The position numbers and the translations under genes are program-made. Below the pieces are notes generated by a model, which saw only the letters and a list, made by a program, of their open reading frames with translations, had not been told where the DNA came from and did not search any database. A DNA stretch of 51,075 nt, taken from positions 1 through 51,075 of the forward strand of contig JAATGJ010000080.1 in assembly GCA_015654695.1 (NCBI GenBank), written 5' to 3'. Every line of letters begins with the position of its first letter. Position 1 is the first letter of the stretch. Below are positions 14,324-39,355 of the stretch, piece after piece. Source of the DNA: Chitinophagales bacterium (GTDB lineage Bacteria > Bacteroidota > Bacteroidia > Chitinophagales > Chitinophagaceae).

Positions 14324-15130
14324 TTAATTTATCCGTATTTGCCTGTTGCCCCCGCCATTGTTCCGTTGCATTTCGTCCATCATCTTATCTCTTTCTTTAC
14401 GGAACTCTTCGGGTGTATAATGTTTTTTTCCTGTTGGCGCTTTTATTACTGCTATATCAGCCTTAGCGGAAATATCAATGGCTTTAAACGTTTGCCGGCC
14501 ATTCGCTACATCCATTTCCAGTATCAACCCGGGAAGCTGCCCCTGGTATTCTGCCGGGCCCGCCGCCACCGGAATATCAGTTGCAAACCATGCAACGATA
14601 GCCGAAGTATCTTCTATTTCTTTCCGTTCCATTTTGCCATTATCCATAGTCATCTGCATCCTCTTATTGATCTGCGTAGTGGTCGCCTTCATGCAATTGT
14701 GGTTCAAAATGGTTTTTGTTTCCCCGGTCATTTTCCACTTCAGTACCCGTATGCTGTCATCAATGATGAATTTTTTATCAAACATATCCCGTTGTTCTAC
14801 TTTTGTACGGGTTTCAAAATTATTATACAGCACATCATCAGTGCCGCCACCCATTATACGTATCTGCATACCCCCGCCGCCAAAATTATCCTCCTGTTCA
14901 TTTTCCTTTTCAGCCTGTTTCCACAGTGATTGGTTATTACCGAAAACCAGTTCAAAATTATCCTTCCTTGTTTTAGGCAGCATGTTTTGCATTTCTTCCC
15001 CCATGTGATCATCATTAATGCGTATCTGTATTTGTACAATTCGTTCGTAGGTCACTTTACCCTCTTTTTGCTGTGCCTGCACCATTATTGCAGTAAAAAA
15101 AGCGCAGCCGGCGATTAGTATTTTCTTCAT
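14324..15130 (-). CDS. GLPGLI family secreted protein
   Basis: The ATG at 15130 (MKKILIAGCAFFTAIMVQAQ) gives a clean signal peptide; the longer frame adds seven residues before it. The 268-residue protein carries the family-naming motif as GQLPGLILEM and the usual KVTYERIVQ start, a Gly-rich patch (FGGGGMQIRIMGGG) and a conserved late Cys-containing block (LNHNCMKATTT). GLPGLI proteins are secreted or periplasmic Bacteroidota proteins of unknown function, often beside barrel proteins and two-component genes. Here it is divergent from the kinase/regulator pair, with which it shares the 139-base promoter region. The end (RNNGGGNRQIRIN) is basic and Asn-rich. Confidence 0.88.
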   Translation of the reverse strand: MKKILIAGCAFFTAIMVQAQQKEGKVTYERIVQIQIRINDDHMGEEMQNMLPKTRKDNFELVFGNNQSLWKQAEKENEQEDNFGGGGMQIRIMGGGTDDVLYNNFETRTKVEQRDMFDKKFIIDDSIRVLKWKMTGETKTILNHNCMKATTTQINKRMQMTMDNGKMERKEIEDTSAIVAWFATDIPVAAGPAEYQGQLPGLILEMDVANGRQTFKAIDISAKADIAVIKAPTGKKHYTPEEFRKERDKMMDEMQRNNGGGNRQIRIN

Positions 15131-15148
15131 AAATGTTTTGTTTAAAAT

Positions 15149-15156
15149 CAAATCTA
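15149..15156 (-). promoter_or_regulatory. -7 box of the GLPGLI promoter
   Basis: On the minus strand TAGATTTG matches the Bacteroidota -7 consensus TAnnTTTG, 18 bases before the ATG. No -33 TTTG is found at the usual spacing; instead GTTAACTTAAC lies there, which would fit activation by the neighbouring regulator. Confidence 0.45.
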
Positions 15157-15192
15157 TACAAGCAGCGCGGGAAGTTAAGTTAACCCACCTTT

Positions 15193-15220
15193 CATTAAGG
15201 TTAATAAAGGTTAAAGCAGG
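15193..15220 (+). promoter_or_regulatory. Direct-repeat operator candidate of the kinase operon
   Basis: GGTTAA occurs at 15199 and again 10 bases on at 15209, within a 28-base block that matches 1742-1769 at 21 of 28 positions without gaps; both blocks end TTAAAGCA. It lies 24 bases before the -7 box at 15244. Position and 10-base period suit an OmpR-type activator, plausibly the regulator encoded at 17036 acting on its own operon. Confidence 0.55.
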
Positions 15221-15243
15221 ATGAAACGGAGAAAAAAGCAGGT

Positions 15244-15251
15244 TACATTTG
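15244..15251 (+). promoter_or_regulatory. -7 box of the kinase/regulator operon
   Basis: TACATTTG is a full match to TAnnTTTG. A transcript starting a few bases later would include the ATG at 15269 but not the one at 15221, which is one reason for choosing the later start. Confidence 0.5.
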
Positions 15252-15268
15252 TACCGGGATCAACAAAC

Positions 15269-17014
15269 ATGAAAAAATTCCGGTGGCTGGCAATATTAAT
15301 GGGGATCACTATCCTGGGTATTACAGGCTTTCAACTGTATTGGCTGAGGAATAATTATGACCGGGAGAAGCTATCGCTGGATCTGCTGACCAATGCATCT
15401 TTCAGGCAGACTATTCTTGAGCTGCAGGCATCCAAAATGAAACTGGAAACAATAAATTTTGAATCAGACGAGCATCCTTTTCCCGGCGGGCCGGGTGTTT
15501 CTGTCAGGAGAGACAAAAATAAAAATGCCGTTGTTCAATTGACTGACGGTAAGAAAGAGCCGCCGATAACGATGATCAACCTGCTCCAGCAGAAGATGAA
15601 AGAGTATGAAGGAGACAGCACTAAAAAGAATACGCTCATTTTTTCCGCCGGCAAATCTGATTCCGTAGAGTTGGTCACGGGAAAAAGAAGAAGCAACATA
15701 AGGTCTATCACTATTTCCGCCAATGGTGATTCAATGATAAAAAACCTGGATCCGGATTTGATCAGGGAAATATCGGTGAATAGCAGTAAGAAAGAAGATG
15801 GCGGGGGCGAAAAAATAATCGCCATCGGCTATGGCAATAAGCCTGCAGGTACATTAAACATGGATACGGCATATACCGGCAAACCGCGCAGGATATTTGA
15901 GAAACGCGTTCCCGGGATGGTGGTGGAGGATGTGATCAATCAAAACGGCGCGACAAATAAACATGGCAGGAATGACGTATTCCGGTTTTTATACAATGTG
16001 GATTCGCTTTCGGTAAAGGATTCCATTACTATAAAAGAAATTACGGATACGTATGCAGCAAAACTGAAAGAAGATAAAATGAACCTTGTATTTGCTGTGA
16101 GCAGGTTAGACAGCAGCTATGAAGATTCCCCGGATATGAATGATGTGACAGTTGGCTTTGCCAAACCAATGACCTATCGTCTTTCTTTGAATAATGAAAT
16201 GAGTTATATTCTGAAAGAACTAAAACTCCCTATATTATTTTCCCTTTTGCTGGTGGGTATTACGATTGCGTCATTTGTTTTGTTGTATCGCACCCTTTTA
16301 AAACAACGAAGACTGGCGGAACTGAAGAATGATTTTATCAGCAACATTACTCATGAATTAAAAACCCCGATAGCTACCGTTGGCGTGGCGATAGAAGCAT
16401 TGAAAAATTTCAACGCTATTCATGACCCGCAGCGAACGAAAGAATACCTGGATATTTCACAAAATGAATTGCAGCGGCTGAGCCTGCTGGTGGACAAGGT
16501 GCTGAAACTTTCCATGTTTGAGAAAAAGGAACTTGAATTAAAGAAAGAGACATTCGATTGTAAGCAACTGGTAGAGGAAGTCATGAACAGTATGAAACTG
16601 CAGTTTGAAAAATATCATGCGAAAGTAAAACTGCATACGGAAGGGGATAATTTTTTAATAGATGCCGACAAGCTGCATATCACCAGTGTGATATATAATC
16701 TCCTGGACAACGCTTTAAAATACAGTAAGGAAAATCCGGTGATTGATGTGCAGTTATCATCACACCCCGAGTTTATCGAGTTCAGCGTAAGTGACAATGG
16801 TATTGGTATTCAGCCGGCTTACAGGGACAAGATATTTGATAAATTTTTCCGGGTTCCTACCGGGAATAAACACAATACTAAGGGATATGGCCTGGGGTTA
16901 AGTTATGTAGCGGAAGTAATCAAACGTCACCAGGGCAAGGTATCTGTTGAAAGTGAATTTGGCAAAGGCAGTACCTTTACGGCGAAAGTACCTTCGGCAG
17001 GTATGCGATTATAA
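15269..17014 (+). CDS. Sensor histidine kinase with large periplasmic domain
   Basis: I take the ATG at 15269 (MKKFRWLAILMG) because the -7 box lies between it and the earlier ATG at 15221. The 581-residue protein has a transmembrane helix (about 3-25), a periplasmic region of about 290 residues with no domain I recognise, a second helix (about 318-342), a HisKA domain with His362 (NITHELKTPIATV) and an ATPase domain with N-box NLLDNALKYS, G1 DNGIGI and G2 GYGLGLSYV. No HAMP domain is evident. It is followed after 21 bases by its OmpR-type regulator. The shared operator with the barrel gene at 1827 suggests envelope control. Confidence 0.9.
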   Translation: MKKFRWLAILMGITILGITGFQLYWLRNNYDREKLSLDLLTNASFRQTILELQASKMKLETINFESDEHPFPGGPGVSVRRDKNKNAVVQLTDGKKEPPITMINLLQQKMKEYEGDSTKKNTLIFSAGKSDSVELVTGKRRSNIRSITISANGDSMIKNLDPDLIREISVNSSKKEDGGGEKIIAIGYGNKPAGTLNMDTAYTGKPRRIFEKRVPGMVVEDVINQNGATNKHGRNDVFRFLYNVDSLSVKDSITIKEITDTYAAKLKEDKMNLVFAVSRLDSSYEDSPDMNDVTVGFAKPMTYRLSLNNEMSYILKELKLPILFSLLLVGITIASFVLLYRTLLKQRRLAELKNDFISNITHELKTPIATVGVAIEALKNFNAIHDPQRTKEYLDISQNELQRLSLLVDKVLKLSMFEKKELELKKETFDCKQLVEEVMNSMKLQFEKYHAKVKLHTEGDNFLIDADKLHITSVIYNLLDNALKYSKENPVIDVQLSSHPEFIEFSVSDNGIGIQPAYRDKIFDKFFRVPTGNKHNTKGYGLGLSYVAEVIKRHQGKVSVESEFGKGSTFTAKVPSAGMRL

Positions 17015-27725: not shown

Positions 27726-28679
27726 ATGAAGCAAGTGATGATATCTTGTCTCTTCATTGTATTGGGCAGTTCAATTAATGCTCAGCAGGAACCACTTTAT
27801 TATTTTATCAGTAAGGATAGTTTGCTTGGAGTAAAGAACATTAAAGGAAAAATTATAATTCCTGCAAGGAACAGGCTATTTTACGAAGTTAAGAATGGGC
27901 AAAAGGTTGAGAGTGGACTTCTCAATCTTATTGACTTAAATGATGCATTTACTGTCGAAAGAAAAAGTTGGGGCAAAACATATAATCGGAGTGGCGTTTT
28001 TTTGTATAGGCCGTACAATTATGATAATGGCCCCGATTATTTAAAGGAGGGATTAGCACGGTTTGTGGAAAATGACAAGATTGGTTTTGTGAACCGGCAT
28101 GGAAAAAAAATTATACCAGCCCAATTTGATTATGTGGAGGAATTTAATCTTGGCACAGCTGCATTTTGTATGGGTTGCTATTTTAATAAAAAAGAAGGTA
28201 GTGAGCATCCTCCGCTAAGAGGGGGATATTTTGGATTAATCAATAAAGAGGGTAATGTTTTAATCAATCGAATACCTAATGACTCCAGCTCACAGGTATG
28301 GCGAAAATTAGATACTTTAAAAAGCCATTTCTATTCGCTGCAATTTCGTTATACCTCTTTTGAAAAAAATCTTATTGAAAAATTTATCCCCTATAAGAAG
28401 ACTATCGAAAAACAATTTTTCAGCAACTGGTCGGGTTTTGCTGAACCAAAATCACTGGAGTTTACTATTGTGGAAAGGCCAACAGCCAGTTTTCCCTATT
28501 ATGTAGTTTATTCCATGGAAAAGCTGGGTAATTATATGCACAGCGGAACTTGGGATGGGCTGGAGTTTTATGTCAGTAAGGATGGCAAACAAATATATTT
28601 TTGTGACTACATGGAGAAGTTGGTTCCTTTTTCAAAATGGTATCGTATCTATAGTAAAGGTGGTCGTGATTATGATTGA
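27726..28679 (+). CDS. Secreted WG-repeat-like protein
   Basis: The ATG at 27726 (MKQVMISCLFIVLGSSINAQ) opens a signal peptide. The 317-residue product has KWG/WG-type units such as GLARFVENDKIGFVNRHGKK followed by IIPAQFDYVEEF, and YFGLINKEGNVLI, in its first two thirds; the last third is a different, aromatic-rich domain. WG-repeat proteins are found in cell envelopes and bind unknown partners. Its base composition is more AT-rich than the helicase before it. The stop overlaps the extended frame of the next gene, but the likely start of that gene is 45 bases downstream. Confidence 0.75.
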   Translation: MKQVMISCLFIVLGSSINAQQEPLYYFISKDSLLGVKNIKGKIIIPARNRLFYEVKNGQKVESGLLNLIDLNDAFTVERKSWGKTYNRSGVFLYRPYNYDNGPDYLKEGLARFVENDKIGFVNRHGKKIIPAQFDYVEEFNLGTAAFCMGCYFNKKEGSEHPPLRGGYFGLINKEGNVLINRIPNDSSSQVWRKLDTLKSHFYSLQFRYTSFEKNLIEKFIPYKKTIEKQFFSNWSGFAEPKSLEFTIVERPTASFPYYVVYSMEKLGNYMHSGTWDGLEFYVSKDGKQIYFCDYMEKLVPFSKWYRIYSKGGRDYD

Positions 28680-28723
28680 GTAAATCGTTCTTCCGGGCTT
28701 TTTTATCCACTGAAATAACTTTC

Positions 28724-29902
28724 ATGCTTATCAATCAATCAGCCACAACCAATACTTCTTTTGATGTGATCGTTATTGGTGTCGGCTCTATGGGTTCATC
28801 CACTTGTTACTTCCTTGCACAACGTGGCTATAAAGTATTGGGGATTGAACAATTTGATATTCCACATGACCAGGGCTCTCACGCCGGGCAAACCCGCATT
28901 ATCCGCAAAGCCTATTTTGAACACCCGGATTATGTGCCCCTATTGCACAGAGCTTATGAAAATTGGAAAAGCCTGGAAAAAGAAACAGGAGAACAGGTCT
29001 ATTACCAGACAGGGCTGGCTTATTTTGGCCAACCTGATAACGAAATGCTAAGTGGAGTAAAGCGATCTGCTGCTTTGTATGATATACCGCTTGATACTTT
29101 TGATACATCTTTTGCAAAAGAACGTTTCCCTCCATTTAAAATACCCGGCAACTTTGAAACTTTGTTTGAACCAGAAGCTGGTTTTGTAACACCGGAGAAG
29201 GCAGTTAAACTTTTTGCAGAACAGGCAATCAGAAACGGAGCTGAAATTCATACAAAGGAAAAAGTTCTGGAATGGAGGAAAGAAGGGGACGGCATCATCA
29301 TAACAACTGATAAAAATATTTATCACAGCAAAAAATTAATTATAGCAGCCGGTGCATGGTCAGGTAAATTGATCCCGTCTATTGCTGAAAAAATAAAAGT
29401 AACCAAGCAGTACGTAGCATGGATAAAACCAAAGAAATGGGATGATTTTACACTAAATAATTTCCCCTGCTGGTTGCTTGCTGATGATGAGCAGCCGGGC
29501 TGTTACTATGGTTTTCCCATATTACCTGCCACAATGGTTGACGGACCTGTTGGATTAAAATTGGCTCATCATTATCCGGGTATAGAAAGTGACCCGGATA
29601 ATGTCAACCGGCAAACAGGTACTGAAGAACTGGAAGATCTTATGTATGTTCTTAATAAATATTTACCGGGAGCTTTTGAATCCGTAATTGCTTCAAAAAC
29701 CTGTTTGTACAGCAATACACTTGATGAAAATTTCATTATTGATAAATTGCCCGGGTTTGAGGATCATGTAACAGTTGCCTGCGGCTTCAGTGGGCATGGT
29801 TTCAAATTCGCTTCAGTAATAGGAGAAATCCTCGCTGACCTTGCCACTGAAGGCTCAACAAAACAATCCATTGATTTTTTAAATGCAACACGCTTTGCGT
29901 AA
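28724..29902 (+). CDS. solA: N-methyltryptophan/sarcosine oxidase-like FAD enzyme
   Basis: I choose the ATG at 28724. The 392-residue protein starts with a dinucleotide-binding fold (VIVIGVGSMGSSTCYFLAQRG), then DQGSHAGQTRIIRKAY, the FAD-contact block of the monomeric sarcosine oxidase family. Cys327 in TCLYSNTLDENFIID matches the Cys that binds FAD covalently, and ACGFSGHGFKFAS is the usual C-terminal block. Such enzymes oxidise N-methyl amino acids, releasing formaldehyde and hydrogen peroxide. Substrate choice between N-methyltryptophan and sarcosine cannot be settled from sequence. It is the last gene before the AT-rich island. Confidence 0.87.
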   Translation: MLINQSATTNTSFDVIVIGVGSMGSSTCYFLAQRGYKVLGIEQFDIPHDQGSHAGQTRIIRKAYFEHPDYVPLLHRAYENWKSLEKETGEQVYYQTGLAYFGQPDNEMLSGVKRSAALYDIPLDTFDTSFAKERFPPFKIPGNFETLFEPEAGFVTPEKAVKLFAEQAIRNGAEIHTKEKVLEWRKEGDGIIITTDKNIYHSKKLIIAAGAWSGKLIPSIAEKIKVTKQYVAWIKPKKWDDFTLNNFPCWLLADDEQPGCYYGFPILPATMVDGPVGLKLAHHYPGIESDPDNVNRQTGTEELEDLMYVLNKYLPGAFESVIASKTCLYSNTLDENFIIDKLPGFEDHVTVACGFSGHGFKFASVIGEILADLATEGSTKQSIDFLNATRFA

Positions 29903-30021
29903 TAGAGGGAATTAAAGTTTTAAAAAATTCTTATCAACAGTTGCACACTTTCATATTTTGCTTTCCAGTTGTAGAATATATTCTTTAACAAGCATAGCGG
30001 AAAACTCAATGTTGAACTAAA

Positions 30022-30320
30022 GTTATGTGTCAACCGAAGCAAGGTTTGTCCTCCTGATGTTGCAACTGAGTTTATCTTGAATGGCCAATTCTCGACCAAT
30101 TATTTATCCGCCAAATAACCGCCATAACCGCCACGTTTTCGCCATAAATCGACTATCAGGAATTTTATAAGATTGCTCCTTGCTTGTCAATTCTTCAAGG
30201 GTCCTGCGTATAGCTGTTCTTTTGGAAGTATTACATACTTGCTGATACTTACCATTTACAGCACATTTAATTTTGCACGGCTCTTAAACCCACCTACAAC
30301 CTCGTTTGCTGACACATAAC
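30022..30320. repeat. 11-base inverted repeat bracketing a remnant region
   Basis: GTTATGTGTCA at 30022-30032 and its exact complement TGACACATAAC at 30310-30320 face each other over about 300 bases. The gap between the oxidase gene and the island (29903-30422) otherwise holds only a degraded winged-helix fragment. The repeat may mark the ends of a small inserted segment; integron-type core sites are not matched. Confidence 0.4.
30104..30271 (-). pseudogene. Degraded winged-helix fragment, possibly from a Fic-family protein
   Basis: On the minus strand a frame without start codon reads KIKCAVNGKYQQVCNTSK followed by RTAIRRTLEELTSKE, then loses sense at MAKTWRLWRLFGG and stops at 30104-30106. 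The YQxxxxxSKRTAxRxLEEL pattern resembles the C-terminal winged helix of Fic-family and related mobile-gene regulators. No Fic catalytic motif is present. It is best seen as a remnant left of the defence island; the family assignment is tentative. Confidence 0.3.
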
Positions 30321-30422
30321 AATACAAAACCACTTATAGGTCACAAACCGACAATAAAACTTAAATTAGTGGCTTAATCAGTTGAAGCACATAACTTAAA
30401 AAAAATGCCCTAATCATATTGA

Positions 30423-31328
30423 ATGATTCTAAACAATACATACTATCACTCGCTTTGGGAGAAGTTCCAAAACGTCCAGACCCTTTCAACTGAGCAATTT
30501 GACAACTCTGTTAGCCTTTCAGTTAAAATCATTTTGGAACATTACAGTAAAAAGATACCCCTGCATATCAATTTTCAAAACTCAAAGGAATCAATCCTGC
30601 AGATAGCTCGCCAACTATTTGTTGAACTTGCTAATGATATTTATTTAAACCATTACGACTTACCTAATAGTTTCTGCGTCGGAGACAAATTAAAAAAAGT
30701 AAAAGACAATCAGTATTATGAAGTAATTAGAAAGGAAAAAGATGATTATACGATAAAGCAGGTATTGAGAAAAAGAAAAGCAGATATTTCACCTGCAATA
30801 ATTCAGGGATTAACTTATGATAAACTAACTAAAGGTTACTTGAAAGTAGATTTAGGGATTAGCGAAAAGACAATTAAAAATTATTTTAATTTTTTTCAGG
30901 AACTAAATAATGAACGTAGTGAATTTCCGAAAACAAACTTTGAAATGAAATCAGTTTTTATTTCAAAGAGACTGCTGTGGAATAATTTAAATCAAAAAGG
31001 TAAAATACCATCTATATACTTACCAAATCCAAGAGAAGAAAGTAATCTTTCGGAAGATAAATCCATACCTGCACTTTCTGATTGTATGATTTATTTCACT
31101 CCCAAATATGAAGTGTGTTATCAAAAACTCCTACTCAAAAATGAAAAAATAAAAACAATAGTTGTGTTTGATACAGAAGTTAATGCAATCCCACAAATGC
31201 TTCAAGATAGACACCGATTTGGTTTTAATATTATCATACTCTCTAATAGTTACTCGCCTATTAAAAACAATACAATACCTTGTTGGAATTGGTTTAAAGA
31301 AGAAATAAATATAATCAATTCCTTATGA
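30423..31328 (+). CDS. DrmE-like protein, N-terminal half (proposed)
   Basis: The 301-residue protein is the first gene of the four-gene island. It has no signal peptide or membrane helix. Hydrophobic strands followed by turns in the last third (KIKTIVVFDTEVNAIPQML, GFNIIILSNS) look like a Rossmann-type fold, and a helical, charged N-terminal half comes before. I know no motif for it by itself. Its stop overlaps the next start (ATGA), and the two together make 788 residues, about the length I recall for DrmE of class 2 DISARM, which also stands beside drmA. A split DrmE is the best reading, but it rests on context and size. Confidence 0.5.
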   Translation: MILNNTYYHSLWEKFQNVQTLSTEQFDNSVSLSVKIILEHYSKKIPLHINFQNSKESILQIARQLFVELANDIYLNHYDLPNSFCVGDKLKKVKDNQYYEVIRKEKDDYTIKQVLRKRKADISPAIIQGLTYDKLTKGYLKVDLGISEKTIKNYFNFFQELNNERSEFPKTNFEMKSVFISKRLLWNNLNQKGKIPSIYLPNPREESNLSEDKSIPALSDCMIYFTPKYEVCYQKLLLKNEKIKTIVVFDTEVNAIPQMLQDRHRFGFNIIILSNSYSPIKNNTIPCWNWFKEEINIINSL

Positions 31329-32788
31329 TACATTTTGAAATTATCAACAATGAAGAATTAGAGAGCTCTATCAAACGATTTGATGCAAAGATTCTATTTC
31401 TGAAAAATCAATTTAATATTGAATCGAAAACCTATGGGAATATTTTACGTATCGCTTTAAATACAATTCAAAATGAAATGTTTGATAATTTAATTGAAAG
31501 AGTTGAAATTAACAAAGAATTAGAATCGGCTCTTGCCCATGAAGGTGGTTATACTATTGATTTTATTAGTGAGAACAATCCTAAAACTGAACTTATTAAT
31601 CTCTTAAATTTTTTGAAAGAAAGCTCACTCAAAAAACAGAGACTATTTAACCACATTCAGAAAAATAACAAACGGGAAATTCTGATAACTGATGCAAATG
31701 ATATTGATTTTATCAAAAAATATAATCGTAATTCAAGGTTGGAAATATTGTCTTTTACAACGCTTAAAAAGAGTGATATTTTAAATAAAGCCTTAGTGTT
31801 TCATTCATTCAATGGTCAAAAGGATTTTGATTATCTCTACAATCTTGATTCAGAGATTACAATGATTCTATACGAACAGGAGCATCAATTATATCAGAAA
31901 CAAATTAACAATAGAAAAAGCCTAATTGAAGATGAGATAAGAAATGAAGACCGATTAAAACTATGTGGGTTAACTTATACCACAATGCCAGATAGACCAG
32001 TGAACATAAGCGGAACAATTGAAAATATTGTGAATAGATTGGATGATTGGGGAAGCAGGGCTTACGATGGCTATAAAAATGAATGTGATTTGCTTTTAGA
32101 TGAAATCGAAGAAAAGGTAATTTGTAAGATTACTTCCGAAAATAAAGTATTCTATTTAGACAGTAACGACACAATTTTTAATAATACTGGGGATTTAATA
32201 AAAGCCTATAAGATAAAGATTGGAGATACAATAAGAATTTACCCAAAAGAACAATTAGCTGAAAATCTGTATCAGGTTGCTGTTGAAACAGAACCAGAGA
32301 TATTTGGCAAAGTAGAAGAACATTCAATATTTTGGAAGAAACTAATATCTGAACTAAGAGCAAAATATGGCAGTGAAATGCTTTACCAGCATTTAAAAGG
32401 AAAAGGACTAAGAGTTTTACCTTCCACTTTAGAAGCCTATGGAAAAAGCAACAGAAAGTTTCCTATGTTCAACAATGATTTGAGGGCAATTTTTAAATTA
32501 TATTATCCTATAAAAAATGATGACGAAATAGACTTGGTTTTGAAACCCATTTTAAAATCCAAAACCACATACAATAGTACTATGATTGTATTGGGCAGGG
32601 GATTAAAACAAGAGCTACGTTTATTTTTAAAAGAAAAGCGAATTGGAGAAATATTAGAAAAAAGAAATTTCAATGCAAATACCTTACAGGTCTTTATTGA
32701 TGAATTTATGCCCTTATATAAAATAACCGCTAAAGAGGTCTTAAATGAGGAATTAGACAACAGCTTATTTGAACAAATAGAATTATGA
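31325..32788 (+). CDS. DrmE-like protein, C-terminal half (proposed)
   Basis: The 487-residue protein overlaps the preceding and following genes by four bases each (ATGA). A middle beta-rich segment (VICKITSENKVFYLDSND, KIGDTIRIYPKEQL) is followed by a helical region with a winged-helix-like block (LYQHLKGKGLRVLPSTLEAY, FPMFNNDLRAIFKLYYP) and a last block with MIVLGRGLKQELRLFLKEK. This latter layout recalls the C-terminal part of DrmE as I remember it. No catalytic motif is visible. It is probably a component of the DISARM-like complex. The alternative is an unnamed accessory protein of the same operon. Confidence 0.5.
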   Translation: MIHFEIINNEELESSIKRFDAKILFLKNQFNIESKTYGNILRIALNTIQNEMFDNLIERVEINKELESALAHEGGYTIDFISENNPKTELINLLNFLKESSLKKQRLFNHIQKNNKREILITDANDIDFIKKYNRNSRLEILSFTTLKKSDILNKALVFHSFNGQKDFDYLYNLDSEITMILYEQEHQLYQKQINNRKSLIEDEIRNEDRLKLCGLTYTTMPDRPVNISGTIENIVNRLDDWGSRAYDGYKNECDLLLDEIEEKVICKITSENKVFYLDSNDTIFNNTGDLIKAYKIKIGDTIRIYPKEQLAENLYQVAVETEPEIFGKVEEHSIFWKKLISELRAKYGSEMLYQHLKGKGLRVLPSTLEAYGKSNRKFPMFNNDLRAIFKLYYPIKNDDEIDLVLKPILKSKTTYNSTMIVLGRGLKQELRLFLKEKRIGEILEKRNFNANTLQVFIDEFMPLYKITAKEVLNEELDNSLFEQIEL

Positions 32789-35700
32789 GTACATCACTAA
32801 ATAGAAATAAAGTTATAAAACGTGTAGAGAAAGAAATTATCGGACCAGGTTCTGATATATTCCTATGTGATGATAATTTAAAAAATGAAATAATTGAAGG
32901 TAAACCGCTACAGAGGTATTTTTCAGCGATTCTATTTCCTAAGCAATTACAGCCTAACGCAAGCGATAACGGACAGGAAGAAAATAAAGATGAAGACGTT
33001 GATGAAAATTTTGATCTGCTTGCTGATACTCCACAAGATTCAGAACAAACAGGGAAAGAAAAGGAAAAATTTGAAGAAGACGAAGACGACCCTACTGACA
33101 CACAACCGAAATATACTTCCAATACATTTTTCCCATCCCACTTCGGAATTTCATTTTGTGTTGACAAGTCTTGTAAATCATTTAAAACCATTATAAGTTT
33201 TGGGAATTACAAAAAGGCTGATTTCAATGAAATAAAATTACCATACCAAGGTGGGGAAGTTAATCTATTGAATGAGTCTGGATTAAACTATTTCGTTGCC
33301 TTTGATGAAGATAATAAAACACTTTATCAAACTAAAAAAACGCAAAGAACCGAAGGCAGTAAATTAACTGCTGATTATCTTCTTCTTCAAGATTCTCTAA
33401 AATCATTAAGGCAAAAAGCTGATAAAGATTTAGCATTATATAAATACATTTCAAAGCTTTTCTTCAAAGACAAGTATAAGAGATATAATAATGAAATAGA
33501 GATTCAAATAAGCATTGATGACGTATTGAATACCCCAAACAAGCATTTAGAACTAGTTATATCCCAAACAGCAAATTGCAATTCAGAGCATTGGCATAAA
33601 GAAATAAAAGAAAACCTAATACTGCATTTGAAATTGTATAATAATACAAAGGATAAATATTTTATTAAAGCAGTTATTGAAAATAAGACACCAATACCAA
33701 AGAAAAAATTCTCATTATCAAAAGAAAAAGTAAATCAGGTTTGTTGTTTTCAAACGGAGATTAAAATAGAAAGCGATAAGCTTTTACCATTCCGAGATTA
33801 TAAAACACATTTATACAAAACAGAAGAAGACAAAATGCTTGATTATTTATATCGAAATAAACTTGCTTTTGGAATCGGTCATAACACTGCCTGTAATTGG
33901 GAAAACAGCAGTACAAATCAAACTCCTGCTTGGATAAAATCAACATTCTTGCCTGAGTATGATGTAAAAAGCCAAAGTTCACAAACAGACAAAATAAAAA
34001 GCGATGTTCTTTCCATTAAGAATATCTCCTCATTCAATCTAAATAAAGAAAATGTAATTCAAAATTTACAAACTATTACTAATGCTTATTTAGGCTGGAT
34101 TAATTCGGAAGAAACCGAAGCCAAAGGGAATGAGTTTGGCATAAGGAATATAACAAAATGCAAAGCCATTCATCAGCGAATATCAAATGGGATTAAGTTA
34201 TTAGCAGAAAATGAAAATGCCTTAAAAGCTTTTCAGTTAGCCAATACGGCAATCTATTTACAAATGTTCCAAAGCCAACAACATTTCAATAGTAAAAAAG
34301 AAGGTTATGAAGTATGGGAACGAAACGAAACATTGCAATACTCTTTTGCTGAATATGCCTCAAAACCATATCCAACTGATAGTGAAGGAAAAGTAAAAGA
34401 ACCGATATGGAGACCTTTTCAATTAGCTTTTATTCTTCAATGTTTAGCTTCATTTGTTGATGAAAATAGTAATGAAAAGGATTTAATTGATTTGCTATAT
34501 TTTCCTACAGGTGGCGGTAAGACGGAAGCTTACTTGGCTGTATCAGCCTTCTTGATTTTTTGGAGAAAAATACAATATCCTGATACCAGTGCTGGCGTAA
34601 ACATTATTATACGTTACACTTTGAGATTACTTTCTGCACAGCAATTTGAAAGAGCCACCAAACTAATTTTAGCTTGTGAATTTATCAGGAATAATTCTAA
34701 GGATTTAGGCAAGGAGAAAATTTCAATTGGTTTTTGGATTGGAAGTTCCTCTATCCCTAATAAATTAAAGAATGACCAAGGTAGAGATGCAGAAGCAAAG
34801 TTAATTAAGCTTTTGGAAAAATTTCAAAAACAAACATATAAACCCAACTATGATGTAAACCCATTTCAGTTATCCAATTGTCAATGGTGTAATACAAAAA
34901 TAATTTCAAGGCTTAAACAAACCGACACAATTTATCAAATCGGACACAGAATTAACAAACAGCTTCATTCCTACTGCTTAAATGAAGGTTGCCATTTTTC
35001 AGAAAGAAATGGCGGCTTGCCAATAGTTTTGATTGATGAAGATGTTTATTCTCATCCACCCACTATTTTATTTGCGACAGTTGACAAGTTTGCTATGTTA
35101 GCTTGGAAATCGGAAGCCACATCATTGTTCAATAATGGTGAAAATCGAAAACCGGAACTGATTATTCAAGACGAATTGCACTTGCTAAATGGAACTTTAG
35201 GCAGTTTGGTTGGTTTGTTTGAAAACGCAATTTTAGCACTTTGCACAACAGAAAACCAAAGACCAAAAATTATTGCTTCCACAGCAACAGTAAAAAATGT
35301 TGATAAACAGATTAGAGGTTTGTATGGTAGGGAAGCCAGCGTATTCCCTCAATACGCAACAAATGCTGACGATACATTTTTCTCAAAAGTGATTGAAGAA
35401 AGTAAACGCAAATATTTAGGAGTTCTGCCAACAGGCAAAACTACAGTTATGACAAATTTGCAATTGCTTGCATCTCTTTTATATGCCCGATTAGAAGTTT
35501 ATCAGCAATCAGAAAATAAAGAAGATGCTGACCAGTTTTGGACTTTACTTTCTTATTTTAAAAGTTTAAAAGAGGTTGGCAGGTTTTCAAATAAAATCAA
35601 TTCGGAATTGAAGCCAGTTATTAAGCAACTTCAAACAAGGTATTTAAATGATAGTTACAAAAGTGCCAATAACTATTTGAAACTTTCTTACAGAAACATT

Positions 35701-36441
35701 GAGCTAACAAGCAGAATTCCAAATGAGAAAATTAAAAAGAACCTTGATAAATTAGACATCAAATTTGAAGGTGATATTAAAGAGCATAAAGCTTATGATT
35801 TAGTATTAGCTACAAATATGATAAGCGTTGGGCTTGATGTTAGTCGTTTAGGAATTATGGTAATGAATGGAATGCCTCCAAACACAGCCGAATATATTCA
35901 GGCTAGTAGCCGAGTTGCTAGAAAAAATGAGGGATTGGTTATTGCATTATACGACCCATTCAATAGCAGAGATTTATCATTTTATGAAGATTTTGTTCAG
36001 TTTCACAAAACCTTTTATAAGCAAGTCGAGCCTTTAACTGTAACACCTTTTGCAGAGAATGCCCTAGAGAAAATGCTTTTCACATTAGTACTTTCTTACT
36101 TTAGACATTCTACAATTTACACAGCAAACGACACTGCAACCGCACTTATTGATGAGAAGGTAAAAAGTGAGCTTCGAGAAAATGCAATTGGTTTATTTAA
36201 AAATCATTCATTTGTTAAACAAGACTTAGCTCTAATAACTGAAAAATTAGATGCGTTGCTGATACAATGGAAATATAAAATTGATGCTCAAAGAAATTTA
36301 AAATATTATTGGAAAGACCATCCGCAAGAATCTCTAATGACACCATTACAGGATAAAAAAAATGAGGCTGATATATTGATTGCAATGCAATCAATGCGTA
36401 GCGTAGAACCCAACTCAGAAATTTTAATTAAGCAATACTAA
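32785..36441 (+). CDS. drmA: DISARM helicase DrmA
   Basis: The 1218-residue protein is a superfamily-2 helicase with Walker A FPTGGGKT (Lys579), a DELH-type motif II (IIQDELHLLNG, 796-799), motif III STAT (832-835), motif V ISVGLDVSRLGIM (about 1013-1025) and motif VI QASSRVAR (1039-1046). A Cys-rich insertion (CQWC ... CLNEGC) lies between motifs I and II. The N-terminus has a long acidic stretch and then SNTFFPSHFGISFCVD, a known DrmA-type segment. DrmA and DrmB form the DNA-translocating core of DISARM, which blocks phages by recognising non-self DNA. It overlaps the gene before it by four bases and is followed by drmB after three. Confidence 0.88.
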   Translation: MSTSLNRNKVIKRVEKEIIGPGSDIFLCDDNLKNEIIEGKPLQRYFSAILFPKQLQPNASDNGQEENKDEDVDENFDLLADTPQDSEQTGKEKEKFEEDEDDPTDTQPKYTSNTFFPSHFGISFCVDKSCKSFKTIISFGNYKKADFNEIKLPYQGGEVNLLNESGLNYFVAFDEDNKTLYQTKKTQRTEGSKLTADYLLLQDSLKSLRQKADKDLALYKYISKLFFKDKYKRYNNEIEIQISIDDVLNTPNKHLELVISQTANCNSEHWHKEIKENLILHLKLYNNTKDKYFIKAVIENKTPIPKKKFSLSKEKVNQVCCFQTEIKIESDKLLPFRDYKTHLYKTEEDKMLDYLYRNKLAFGIGHNTACNWENSSTNQTPAWIKSTFLPEYDVKSQSSQTDKIKSDVLSIKNISSFNLNKENVIQNLQTITNAYLGWINSEETEAKGNEFGIRNITKCKAIHQRISNGIKLLAENENALKAFQLANTAIYLQMFQSQQHFNSKKEGYEVWERNETLQYSFAEYASKPYPTDSEGKVKEPIWRPFQLAFILQCLASFVDENSNEKDLIDLLYFPTGGGKTEAYLAVSAFLIFWRKIQYPDTSAGVNIIIRYTLRLLSAQQFERATKLILACEFIRNNSKDLGKEKISIGFWIGSSSIPNKLKNDQGRDAEAKLIKLLEKFQKQTYKPNYDVNPFQLSNCQWCNTKIISRLKQTDTIYQIGHRINKQLHSYCLNEGCHFSERNGGLPIVLIDEDVYSHPPTILFATVDKFAMLAWKSEATSLFNNGENRKPELIIQDELHLLNGTLGSLVGLFENAILALCTTENQRPKIIASTATVKNVDKQIRGLYGREASVFPQYATNADDTFFSKVIEESKRKYLGVLPTGKTTVMTNLQLLASLLYARLEVYQQSENKEDADQFWTLLSYFKSLKEVGRFSNKINSELKPVIKQLQTRYLNDSYKSANNYLKLSYRNIELTSRIPNEKIKKNLDKLDIKFEGDIKEHKAYDLVLATNMISVGLDVSRLGIMVMNGMPPNTAEYIQASSRVARKNEGLVIALYDPFNSRDLSFYEDFVQFHKTFYKQVEPLTVTPFAENALEKMLFTLVLSYFRHSTIYTANDTATALIDEKVKSELRENAIGLFKNHSFVKQDLALITEKLDALLIQWKYKIDAQRNLKYYWKDHPQESLMTPLQDKKNEADILIAMQSMRSVEPNSEILIKQY

Positions 36442-36444
36442 TTT

Positions 36445-38331
36445 ATGCCCAACGATAAAATAAAGCACGGAAGAAGTAAGCATATTTCAAATTATGGTGG
36501 TGTTGGTTCCATTATTGAAACAACAGATTGTTCAATAATAATAGAAACCTTTGATAACTGGGGCTACAATGACTTGAATGAAAAGCTTGCTCAATATATT
36601 ATTAAAGATGACCGGCTTTTAGAAAGACTTAAAAGTCGTTTTCAAAATTTAAAGCATTTAGTTTCAATCCCCGAATTCAAAAGTTATAAATTTAATAACC
36701 CTCCGATTGTTCAACCAAAGGCTAATTATTTCCCTAAATGGTTTTATTGTAACACTTGTAATAAACTAGCCGAATATTCCGAATGGAAAGAACGATGGAG
36801 AAGTTCAGGCAAAAATCTTGATTTTTTTAACCCGCCAAAATGCAACAACAGGGAATGTAAAGAATCCAATTTAGAGCAAATTCGTTTTGTTATGACTTGC
36901 ACTAATGGTCATATCCATGATATTCCTTGGGAATATTGGAATAACCGCTTACCAACTGATAGAACCAACGAAGAAGAAGATAATGACGATGATTCAAAAA
37001 ATGCAAAACCAAACGGACCACAATTAAATTTTTCAAAATGTTGTTCTGAACAAAGTTTAACATATAAAATTAGTCGTGAAAATACAGAGCTATCAGGTAT
37101 TTGGATTGAATGTTCAAAGTGTAGTAAGAGACAGAATTTAAAAGGGATTTTTAACTATGAACAGAAATGTAATGGAAAAAAATATTGGTTAGGTCAATTT
37201 AATGGTAAGTTTTCTGAAATAGAATGCACGGAAGTAACCAGTGTGAAAGTAAAAACAAGTAATAGTGTTTATTATGCAAATACTTTAAGTAGTCTTTTCA
37301 TTCCTGAAATGCAAAACCCACTTTCTTCCGAAATCAGGATTGATATTGACAATATGGCTGAAAGTAAAAAATTTACTAAAGAGCAAATTATCCAGCTAGT
37401 TAGCATTCAAAAGGGAATTTCAGAGGACCTTATTTCCCAATATTTAGAAACAGGTGAAATAAAATATATTCCTGACAATGTTTATCGCCAAACTGAATAC
37501 GATTACTTTTTAACCAGAGAACAACCTGAAAACAATCAAATAAAATTCAGACTAATTGATTATAGTGAACAGATTTTCGGATTTTCTAAAATCGTTAAAA
37601 TTGACAAGCTGAAAAAAATAACAGTACAAACATCCTTTACCCGAAATGAGCCTATAGACATTGATTCAATCCTTCAAGAGCAGAATGAGTATGAATATAA
37701 TGTAGAAAGGCAATCTGTTTCAAAAAACAATTTCAATACAAGAACACTTCCAGCATTAGAAAGTTATGGTGAAGGGATTTTATTTGTTTTGGATAGTGAA
37801 AAAATGGAAGAATGGGAAACCCAAGAGCAAGTAATACTCCGAACAGAAAAAGTTAGGAAAAATGCTAAAAATGCTGATTGGAAACTTCATCAAATAATTG
37901 CGCAAACTCTTACTCCAAGAAAAATTTTAAGTCATACACTGTCTCATTTACTGATTCGTGAATTAGAATATGTTTGTGGTTATCCAAGTTCATCCTTACA
38001 AGAAAGGCTTTTTGTAAGTGAGACAATGAATGGTTTTTTAATATCTGCATTTGACGGCACAGACGGATATTTGGGTGGATTAGCAAACCTTTGTAACGAC
38101 TTAAACGAGTTGAACAAAATAATAAAGAGTGCAATTTTTAGGGCGACAGATTGTTCGTCAGACCCAATTTGTTTGGAATCAGAAGGGCAAGGTGTTGGGC
38201 AATTAAATTTAGCGGCTTGCCATTCTTGTACTCTGACGCCTGAGACGACTTGTGAACTTTCAAATTTATATCTTGATAGAAAATTAATTATTGACAATGA
38301 ATTTGGTTTCTTTAAATCATTAATACAATGA
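36445..38331 (+). CDS. drmB: DISARM protein DrmB (DUF1998)
   Basis: The 628-residue protein starts RSKHISNYGGVGSIIE, as DrmB proteins do (R-x-x-x-I-x-x-x-G-x-G-S-I). Paired cysteines follow (CNTCNK, KCNNREC, ECSKCSK), then the HTLSHLLIRELEYVCGYPSS block and at the C-terminus the DUF1998 zinc signature ACHSCTLTPETTCE (Cys592, Cys595, Cys603). DrmB partners the helicase DrmA in DISARM. The stop overlaps the start of another frame by four bases (ATGA), as at the other junctions of this operon, so a further gene once followed. Confidence 0.9.
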   Translation: MPNDKIKHGRSKHISNYGGVGSIIETTDCSIIIETFDNWGYNDLNEKLAQYIIKDDRLLERLKSRFQNLKHLVSIPEFKSYKFNNPPIVQPKANYFPKWFYCNTCNKLAEYSEWKERWRSSGKNLDFFNPPKCNNRECKESNLEQIRFVMTCTNGHIHDIPWEYWNNRLPTDRTNEEEDNDDDSKNAKPNGPQLNFSKCCSEQSLTYKISRENTELSGIWIECSKCSKRQNLKGIFNYEQKCNGKKYWLGQFNGKFSEIECTEVTSVKVKTSNSVYYANTLSSLFIPEMQNPLSSEIRIDIDNMAESKKFTKEQIIQLVSIQKGISEDLISQYLETGEIKYIPDNVYRQTEYDYFLTREQPENNQIKFRLIDYSEQIFGFSKIVKIDKLKKITVQTSFTRNEPIDIDSILQEQNEYEYNVERQSVSKNNFNTRTLPALESYGEGILFVLDSEKMEEWETQEQVILRTEKVRKNAKNADWKLHQIIAQTLTPRKILSHTLSHLLIRELEYVCGYPSSSLQERLFVSETMNGFLISAFDGTDGYLGGLANLCNDLNELNKIIKSAIFRATDCSSDPICLESEGQGVGQLNLAACHSCTLTPETTCELSNLYLDRKLIIDNEFGFFKSLIQ

Positions 38332-38420
38332 CAATCCTACATGGATCGTTTGGCTTTCAAAGTTTGTTTAACTTTAGGCATGGCGTTAAACTTTTACCTC
38401 TTTGTCCCGATAGTAATCGA
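38328..38420 (+). pseudogene. 5' remnant of a fifth island gene (drmC?)
   Basis: An ATG at 38328 overlaps the drmB stop in the same ATGA manner as the other genes of the operon. It reads MTILHGSFGFQSLFNF and then turns into sequence without protein character (Cys/Trp/His-rich), and the frame runs on into the lysozyme gene in another phase. In DISARM the next gene is usually drmC, a phospholipase D-like protein. The likely explanation is loss of all but the first codons. The end coordinate is approximate. The stretch to 38520 has nothing else I can name, except a CCCGATAGTAATCG-like repeat fragment near 38406. Confidence 0.35.
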
Positions 38421-38544
38421 AATTGGTTTTGTGTCGTAGGTTCAGCAAAAAAGGGGATTGCTAAAAATAGCGTAGGATCGAGTTGGCAAAGTCATATATG
38501 CTTAAATTATGTAGGAGATGCTGTTTATCGTGACGCACAACGTT

Positions 38545-38552
38545 TATATTTG
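38545..38552 (+). promoter_or_regulatory. -7 box of the lysozyme gene
   Basis: TATATTTG is a full match to TAnnTTTG, 32 bases before the ATG at 38585. It shows that the native, non-island sequence has begun by here. Confidence 0.5.
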
Positions 38553-38584
38553 CCCTGCTTTCTTACAAAAGCATCCATCTTTTC

Positions 38585-39355
38585 ATGCCACGCCGCCGAA
38601 AAAAGAAGTTCCCCCGCTGGATCATTTCCTTTATTGTAATCGCCGTGCTGGCTTTTGCTGCGTGGACAGGCTACCGGTGGTGGATGTACCGTAAGGCGAA
38701 ATTTACCCGCTATCCTGAGTTCGGCATCGCTATCCCTTCTGACTATTCCATTCATGGTATTGATGTATCCAAATACCAGGACATTATCGCCTGGGAAGAA
38801 GTAAAGGCGATGAGAGTAGATAATATCCAGGTGGGATTTGCCTTTATGAAAGCGACTGAAGGGATCGGCAACAGGGATCCGCAGTTTCACCGCAACTGGA
38901 AAAAAGCCAAAGCCAATAATATCGTCCGGGGAGCTTATCATTTTTTTGTCGCTTCAAAAGATGGCAAGATGCAGGCGCAGAATTTTATCAAACGGGTAGA
39001 GATAGAACCCGGTGACCTGCCGCCAGTGCTTGATGTAGAACAACGAAATGGCGTAAGTACGGCACAACTAAAAAAAGAAGTAATGAAATGGCTGGAGACA
39101 GCGGAGAACTATTATAAAGTAACGCCGATCATTTATACCAATGTTGATTTTTATAAACAATACCTGGGCAGCGACTTTGATAAATATCCTTTGTGGGTAG
39201 CGCATTATTATGAAGAACAGCAACCCCGCATCCAGCGCAACTGGATATTCTGGCAGCATAATGACCAGGGAACGGTGAATGGCATCATACACAAAGTTGA
39301 CTTCAATGTCTTTAAAGGAGATTCATTAGCATTCAAAAACATTCTTGTCAGGTAA
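38585..39355 (+). CDS. Glycoside hydrolase family 25 lysozyme-like protein
   Basis: The 256-residue protein has a basic N-terminus and one membrane anchor (about 13-30), then a GH25 domain: IHGIDVSKYQ, FAFMKATEG, VRGAYHFF, the catalytic pair region PPVLDVE, PIIYTN, LWVAHY and FWQHN. Such enzymes cleave the N-acetylmuramic acid to N-acetylglucosamine bond of peptidoglycan. The membrane anchor places it in the periplasm, so a role in wall remodelling is more likely than export. It lies just right of the island and has its own promoter. Confidence 0.92.
   Translation: MPRRRKKKFPRWIISFIVIAVLAFAAWTGYRWWMYRKAKFTRYPEFGIAIPSDYSIHGIDVSKYQDIIAWEEVKAMRVDNIQVGFAFMKATEGIGNRDPQFHRNWKKAKANNIVRGAYHFFVASKDGKMQAQNFIKRVEIEPGDLPPVLDVEQRNGVSTAQLKKEVMKWLETAENYYKVTPIIYTNVDFYKQYLGSDFDKYPLWVAHYYEEQQPRIQRNWIFWQHNDQGTVNGIIHKVDFNVFKGDSLAFKNILVR

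Follow-up and report, generated by a model that had tools for sequence, protein, structure and literature searches.

A DISARM-like operon without methyltransferase or drmC genes

Can a defence system of the DISARM type dispense with the methyltransferase that marks self? The name DISARM reflects a link with restriction-modification, yet the way in which the system spares its own host is debated, methylation and gating by DNA structure both having been proposed. The question is raised by a four-gene operon in a 51,075-nucleotide stretch from a Chitinophagales bacterium (positions 1 to 51,075 of contig JAATGJ010000080.1, assembly GCA_015654695.1; this whole stretch is called the window below), in which homologues of DrmA and DrmB are preceded by two proteins, here E1 and E2, and are accompanied by neither a methyltransferase nor DrmC. 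We read the operon as a minimal, methyltransferase-free DISARM-like anti-phage system in which DrmAB would be gated by an acidic loop and by DNA structure, with DrmE adding recognition, and we put the probability of this reading at roughly 0.55. Its four genes are as follows.

30423 to 31328, + strand: E1 gene, 301 amino acids, probable N-terminal half of a divergent split DrmE
31325 to 32788, + strand: E2 gene, 487 amino acids, probable C-terminal half of the split DrmE
32785 to 36441, + strand: drmA, 1218 amino acids, SF2 helicase of the YprA/DISARM type
36445 to 38331, + strand: drmB, 628 amino acids, DUF1998/MrfA-zinc-binding type with a C-terminal cysteine cluster

All four genes lie on the same strand at the coordinates given in the initial annotation, with junctions of -4, -4 and +3 bases (both overlaps reading ATGA), so that a single transcript is probable. 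The operon is also AT-rich as that annotation had it, with a GC content of 0.314 against 0.410 in the remaining window, the values for 56 equally long flank stretches lying between 0.406 and 0.424. Profiles of C5 and HsdM methyltransferases matched none of the open reading frames (ORFs) of at least 80 amino acids in the 51 kb, and the [DNS]PP[YFW] motif was found in none of at least 150 amino acids, which agrees with the claim that the operon has no methyltransferase. The claim that it lacks an intact DrmC needs no such qualifier, as not even a drmC remnant was seen in the operon or directly 3' of drmB.

DrmA and DrmB, recognised at first by motif, are borne out as DISARM-like by profile searches. 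DrmA matches NF038325 at 1.5e-255 (851 bits, short of the curated 950-bit cut-off), the PADLOC DrmA profile at 1.2e-196 and the Serratia DrmA structure (PDB 7s9v_A) at 4.3e-126, and DrmB matches NF038324 with 354.6 bits (cut-off 240), Pfam MZB with 25.3 bits (cut-off 24.2) and Serratia DrmB (PDB 7s9v_B) at 8.1e-44. Three features of DrmA matter to the argument.

34504 to 34524, + strand: Walker A motif, PTGGGKT
35167 to 35181, + strand: motif II, QDELH
32950 to 33099, + strand: acidic stretch, residues 56-105, with 21 Asp/Glu and 4 Lys/Arg, located where Serratia DrmA has its autoinhibitory trigger loop

Walker A and motif II (as QDE[LT]H) are kept in all 21 DrmA relatives, the window included, and so is the acidic stretch (DrmA residues ~52-109), with 14-23 acidic residues per 50. 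Our own pattern for motif III matched none of the 21, and that for motif VI missed three (L082, L092 and L094); we take these misses to reflect narrow patterns, and the window DrmA aligned to 7s9v shows ASTATV. The C-terminal cysteine cluster was present in all 15 DrmB C-termini inspected, again with the window among them.

E1 and E2 as a probable split DrmE

Neither E1 nor E2 gave a usable match to PADLOC, NCBIfam or Pfam profiles. The DrmE profiles of NF038316 and PADLOC likewise matched none of E1, E2, the split pair L004 and the fused proteins L005/L015 and L031, and found nothing in the host's own genome. The E2 gene occurs in three of 396 same-order genomes, its own included. G395 (L014) has the same split pair, while G182, the Haliscomenobacter plasmid pHALHY02, has one 792-residue gene spanning E1 and E2, E1 aligning to residues 1-309 of the fused protein. 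A further fused E has 790 residues (L031), and more distant ones are found in L069 (816 residues, 62 bits to the E2 profile) and on a Hymenobacter plasmid (L022, 864 residues). Residues 682-787 of the Hymenobacter protein match both NF038316 (9.1e-9, 34 bits where the cut-off is 80) and the E-family profile (3.4e-19).

The relation to DrmE is carried by E2. In local hhalign comparison, a profile of 21 E2-type sequences matched the C-terminal halves of six DrmE-like proteins over 151 columns at 2.9e-6 with a probability of 88%, the DrmA and DrmB controls giving 0.15 and 0.4. Two of the six, L066 (79.6 bits) and L068 (75.4 bits), are DrmE_fam matches under the cut-off of 80; L070, L073, L074 and L076 entered the set by position and size.

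32159 to 32629, + strand: region of E2 aligned to DrmE by hhalign, residues 279-435

For E1 the relation is marginal, the best hmmsearch value being 2.7e-4 with the six-protein set and the hhalign value of 0.5 not being significant. The initial annotation had described two genes of DrmE-like size and position; a remote kinship with DrmE stands through E2, and the count does not, as we take E1 and E2 to be one divergent DrmE cut in two, assigned by homology for the C-terminal half and marginally for the N-terminal half. Splitting of DrmE is not unique to this family, because the DrmE-like proteins of L068, L070, L074 and L076 are also split, each gene pair overlapping by 4 bases. With L095 added to these four, DrmE-like proteins encoded by two overlapping or adjacent genes were seen in five other DISARM-like operons.

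L068, 13632-16315, and L095, 1036-3198: two-gene DrmE-like, with a DrmE_fam match
L070, 1144-3719, L074, 13434-16045, and L076, 3745-6320: two-gene DrmE-like, by position

AlphaFold2 models of E1 (pLDDT 84.3, pTM 0.84) and E2 (pLDDT 78.5, pTM 0.44) gave Foldseek matches too weak to use: RecA-like helicase domains for E2 (Vasa C-domain, probability 0.75; ISWI, 0.69) and F1-ATPase subunits for E1 (probability about 0.1). That E1E2 might be a dead helicase is only a lead from these models. Comparison of the E1 and E2 profiles with PDB sequences gave designed repeat proteins, which reached 8.3e-7 for the sequence as a whole but had no individual stretch that passed, and transporter lipoproteins at 0.06 or worse; both were rejected. 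A 352-residue frame of L016 (7469-8527, G182:C3) with weak E2 matches of 7e-4 and 3e-5 was taken for chance; it lies on the plasmid that also carries the fused E gene of G182. Later rounds of the iterative search were contaminated by this frame, and only L022, from the first round, and L069, a direct match to the E2 profile, were used.

Recurrence of the layout and selection on the operon

Scanning of genome contigs with four E2 sequences showed that the E1-E2-DrmA-DrmB layout recurs without METHYLTRANSFERASE at 18 further loci (L077-L094), as the initial annotation had predicted for a methyltransferase-free arrangement; three of these are the same records as G395, G645 and G740. Fourteen are labelled as Bacteroidota in the narrow sense, three as Ignavibacteria or Melioribacter relatives and one as a Limnohabitans metagenome-assembled genome (MAG). 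The MAG locus, L088, shares a mean 90% DNA identity over drmA-drmB with L087 from a Bacteroidetes bin, and is probably a misbinned contig. All four genes are whole in 14 of the 18; in the others (L083, L091, L092 and L093) a contig end or a run of N interrupts the operon. The ATGA overlap of E1 and E2 was present at each of the 17 loci measured, the window among them, and E2 and drmA overlap by 4 bases in 13 of 16. None of the 18 operons contains a methyltransferase or drmC gene. Matches to an HKD-type pattern in L078, L081 and L090 fell in E2 or DrmB frames and were taken as chance, and plasmid loci of Tsukamurella, Photobacterium, Deinococcus and Priestia were set aside, having other genes in place of E.

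The surroundings were scanned as 76 proteins of at least 150 amino acids within 5 kb of the operon at 17 loci (L086 yielded none; L091 and the window were left out). Among the matches listed (the best 25 of 279 PADLOC and 25 of 91 Pfam families) there were two methyltransferases, one of type I and one of type III, and our own profile and motif placed these type I/III cases at L079 (HsdM) and L094. L081 has a 95-residue C5 piece at the contig end, adjoining an MvaI/BcnI nuclease, and L084 has two frames with the methyltransferase motif. No methyltransferase is common to the operon surroundings in the loci read.

For comparison, 395 same-phylum genomes were searched with NF038325. Matches at E <= 1e-3 were found in 44 of the genomes, 20 of them strong (<1e-50), and the surroundings of all 20 were read. 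Five strong loci carry the E family (the window, L029, L030, L031 and L069) and none of the five has a methyltransferase candidate, though the contigs of L029 and L030 end inside or beside the operon. Eleven of the 15 that lack the E family do have a methyltransferase candidate nearby (nine by C5 profile, two by motif alone), several of the 15 being from one genus and so not independent events; the four without are L071 and, on short contigs, L064, L067 and L073.

The ratio of non-synonymous to synonymous substitution rates (dN/dS; Nei-Gojobori, three close pairs, four genes, with the E1 module described below omitted where swapped) was 0.056-0.192. These values show purifying selection, and together with the 18 further loci of the same layout and the retention of Walker A and motif II throughout the 21 relatives they speak against decay.

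These results bear on the reading of the operon as a degenerate class 2 DISARM that has lost drmMII and drmC and is either a remnant or relies in trans on an unrelated methyltransferase and PLD nuclease of the host. Related operons do carry a methyltransferase (a Lactiplantibacillus plasmid, with DrmMII at 2.6e-138, L062, L063 and L066), and hosts might offer substitutes. Across 21 host genomes with the system (19 split, two fused; mostly drafts, with completeness stated for three), a match was lacking in seven for PF00145 (C5), in one for PF07669 (Eco57I), in one for PF02384 (N6_Mtase) and in four for PF01555 (N6_N4_Mtase), so that Eco57I or N6_Mtase is matched at least once in 20 of the 21. 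The host of the window itself has PLD-domain matches in frames of 394, 700 and 695 amino acids and one C5 methyltransferase match (G000:C160, L017), on a 4.8-kb contig with HNH and DndB-like genes. The initial annotation had considered that an orphan drmM might lie elsewhere in the genome beside drmC remnants. The C5 match, which adjoins the HNH and DndB-like genes, scores higher against type II enzymes (156 bits) than against DrmMII (96 bits). Against degeneration stand the recurrence, the conserved motifs and the dN/dS values, the lack of any common methyltransferase beside the operon in the loci read, the seven hosts without PF00145, and G777 (L082, [Flexibacter] sp. ATCC 35208, 8.6 Mb), in which no intact member of the four methyltransferase families was seen: PF07669, PF02384 and PF01555 gave no match, and PF00145 is reduced to one 45-residue piece with a stop. 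We regard degeneration as unlikely. Of the two alternatives first offered for this operon, that it has shed its self-marking part or that it has another way to tell self, the second fits better, given its wide occurrence, the purifying selection and G777.

The genomic setting speaks to whether the operon serves defence. It lies between a PcrA/UvrD-type helicase gene and a GH25 gene (window 28676-39355). In three genomes of the same genus (G792, G793 and G794) the helicase-GH25 interval holds what looks by eye like the genes of a two-component pair, together with short genes and no operon; in G794 the helicase gene is followed by an oxidase gene, in the same order as in the window. The variable site and the difference in GC content together indicate that the operon was acquired. 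The system is patchy, being present in three of 396 same-order and four of 395 same-phylum genomes (its own counted in each), and one relative operon is plasmid-borne; 68 pattern matches in viral contigs included no relatives. The operon might instead encode a helicase of the YprA/MrfA kind that serves DNA repair or plasmid control, since YprA-family helicases also act in repair (PMC12458937, main text) and the assignment to defence is by kinship. Its best matches, however, are DISARM profiles and the cryo-EM structure of Serratia DrmAB, and the patchy occurrence, the AT-rich island at a variable site and the plasmid-borne relative also argue for defence, so that a role outside it seems quite improbable.

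An exchangeable module in E1

A segment of about 85 residues in E1 departs from the rest of the operon. It occurs in two forms, I and II, and the DSSP string of the AlphaFold2 model reads as a barrel with a helix.

30654 to 30941, + strand: E1 module, residues ~78-173, predicted to fold as a small beta barrel with a helix; the window has form I

Form I is found in ten of 15 close members, the window included, and form II in five (L079, L080, L084, L085 and L087). Between forms, identity over the module is 22-35%; within form I it is 38-93% (lowest for L089) and within form II 38-76%, while E1 outside the module is 53-95% identical. The contrast is sharpest in the pairs L087/L088 and L077/L085. 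These share a mean 90% and 92% DNA identity over drmA-drmB (90-base windows down to 69-70%) and mostly more than 80% over E1-E2 outside the module, and fall to 37-57% and 44-55%, respectively, in the module core. When the four proteins are compared in 80-column windows, the spread of pairwise residuals peaks over the module (19.1; median 5.2, 95th percentile 10.8). At least four changes of form are needed on the DrmAB tree (15 labelled tips, five of form II), a quick tree in which three of 13 inner branches are open and L089 and L094 form long branches. The two forms are homologous (hhalign 5.1e-12). The pattern is that of a cassette exchange at a single place, most simply through homologous recombination. 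E1 of the window and L082 is 81% identical, with 60% for E2, 74% for DrmA and 77% for DrmB, a further sign that E1 may move on its own.

The next most variable region, DrmB residues ~261-376, owes its rank to L080 alone. In the DrmB of that locus (15078-16973) this stretch is 46-51% identical to the others and 38% to L089, compared with 55-95% among members other than L080, and it is possibly a second exchange site.

DrmE is the sole component besides DrmAB, and its exchanged domain is a natural candidate for a recognition or counter-inhibitor surface. The module might alternatively be a docking site for phage inhibitors or a host partner, with both forms persisting because inhibitors fit one each. 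The existence of just two discrete homologous forms among 15 members sits well with this, as sequence-recognition domains would predict many alleles, and the clean cassette exchange also accords with it. The data fit recognition and docking alike, the divergent DrmB stretch of L080 being compatible with both; we consider docking rather unlikely.

Proposed mode of action

In Serratia, DrmAB is held off by its trigger loop (residues 176-232 of DrmA), binds single-stranded DNA and 5' overhangs by preference, and requires ATP hydrolysis, and DrmC is dispensable, according to PMC9142583. By analogy, the present operon appears to keep those parts of the Serratia scheme that are independent of methylation. 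DrmAB would then be silent on host DNA, restrained by its own acidic loop and by a requirement for single-stranded ends that are exposed. Phage DNA, on entry or during replication, would switch it on, and DrmAB would translocate and so block circularisation, replication or transcription, with no dedicated nuclease involved. The distinction of self from non-self would lie in DNA structure and DrmE in place of methylation, the small exchangeable domain of E1 recognising something variable in the invader or in the means by which it counters the system.

Several observations weigh against this proposal. Acidic stretches with 10-22 acidic residues also occur in 12 other DISARM-like DrmA proteins checked, and the stretch of the present DrmA aligned by phmmer to residues ~184-232 of 7s9v at just 4 bits. 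The Eco57I or N6_Mtase matches in nearly all hosts, and other routes such as further methyltransferases (e.g. PF02086), 7-deazaguanine or phosphorothioate, would be compatible with marking in trans. Foldseek comparison of the E1 and E2 models with the PDB gave nothing at E <= 1e-3, so that structural support for a recognition role goes no further than the barrel prediction. The two discrete module forms could be an escape from a phage inhibitor. Defence genes in the flanks (AbiE, type I/III restriction-modification and candidate PADLOC families) are scattered, with no family in more than three of the 76 proteins among the matches listed (again the best 25 of 279 and 25 of 91), and the defence role itself is drawn from kinship with DISARM.

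A more specific idea, which we put forward tentatively, is that the family is a DISARM-like class in which methyl-marking has been replaced by a protein recognition cassette: the split would let the sensor half, E1, re-assort, with the barrel setting the target and the DrmAB motor held constant. In that case, and with the same reserve, the cassette might be likened to the target-recognition domains of restriction enzymes. We know of no function for DrmE, and the exchangeable domain of E1 points to a specificity element in it. A natural and recurrent methyltransferase-free version also lets the question of self-avoidance be tested directly. The family escapes current detection rules, as E1 and E2 match no PADLOC or NCBIfam profile, DrmA falls under the NCBIfam cut-off and required genes are missing; such systems are therefore probably under-counted.

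Comparison with known defence systems

Definitions of the DISARM classes were taken from PMC9252829 and PMC9142583. Among the papers listed in a literature search that took in few subscription papers, none dealt with a methyltransferase-free or DrmE-split DISARM. DISARM is placed among the YprA-family systems in PMC12458937, which also mentions DISARM-like classes that are uncharacterised and, next to McrBC, a cassette of DISARM-like type; the term DrmE does not occur in its main text.

Other loci met in this work combine the DISARM core with further genes. L069 (G448:C1, 11670-19761) is an E-A-B relative with a Piwi-domain (argonaute-like) gene of 690 amino acids (PF02171, 1.7e-15) 13 bases upstream on the same strand, and also has upstream a gene of 559 amino acids without matches and a McrB-like AAA gene of 613 amino acids; it is possibly an argonaute-McrB-DISARM-like composite. 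In L066 (6639-8366) and L070 (3707-5443) a UvrD-like helicase of 575-578 amino acids, which in L070 bears a NERD nuclease domain, stands between DrmE and DrmA; the window operon has no such gene.

With class 2 DISARM (DrmE, DrmMII, DrmA, DrmB, DrmC) the operon shares the DrmA-DrmB order and a probable upstream DrmE homologue of equal total size, but it has no DrmMII or DrmC, and its DrmE is split in two and so divergent that no profile matches it. The PADLOC definition of type II DISARM demands all five genes (PMC9252829), and the operon falls outside it. The plasmid pMK02 of Lactiplantibacillus plantarum (L021, NZ_CP012655.1) has the order DrmMII, an 801-residue protein, DrmA and DrmB, similar in arrangement and sizes; as in the operon, no drmC is annotated in the stretch read, whereas DrmMII is present, and the 801-residue protein showed no detectable kinship to E1 or E2 in the searches made. 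With class 1 (DrmD, DrmMI, DrmA, DrmB, DrmC; Serratia) the operon has in common the DrmAB core and an acidic stretch at the place of the trigger loop. It differs in having no DrmD SNF2 helicase, DrmMI adenine methyltransferase or DrmC, and, as judged from the alignment offset, its DrmA lacks ~120 residues that Serratia DrmA has ahead of the loop. ARMADA, which comprises a YprA helicase, a BrxHII-like helicase and a PglX-like methyltransferase (PMC12458937, main text), shares the YprA-family helicase core; the operon has neither the BrxHII-like helicase nor PglX, and its helicase and DUF1998 proteins are separate genes, as in DISARM. The operon thus lies outside class 1 and class 2 as defined, and is a variant of the DISARM-like systems.

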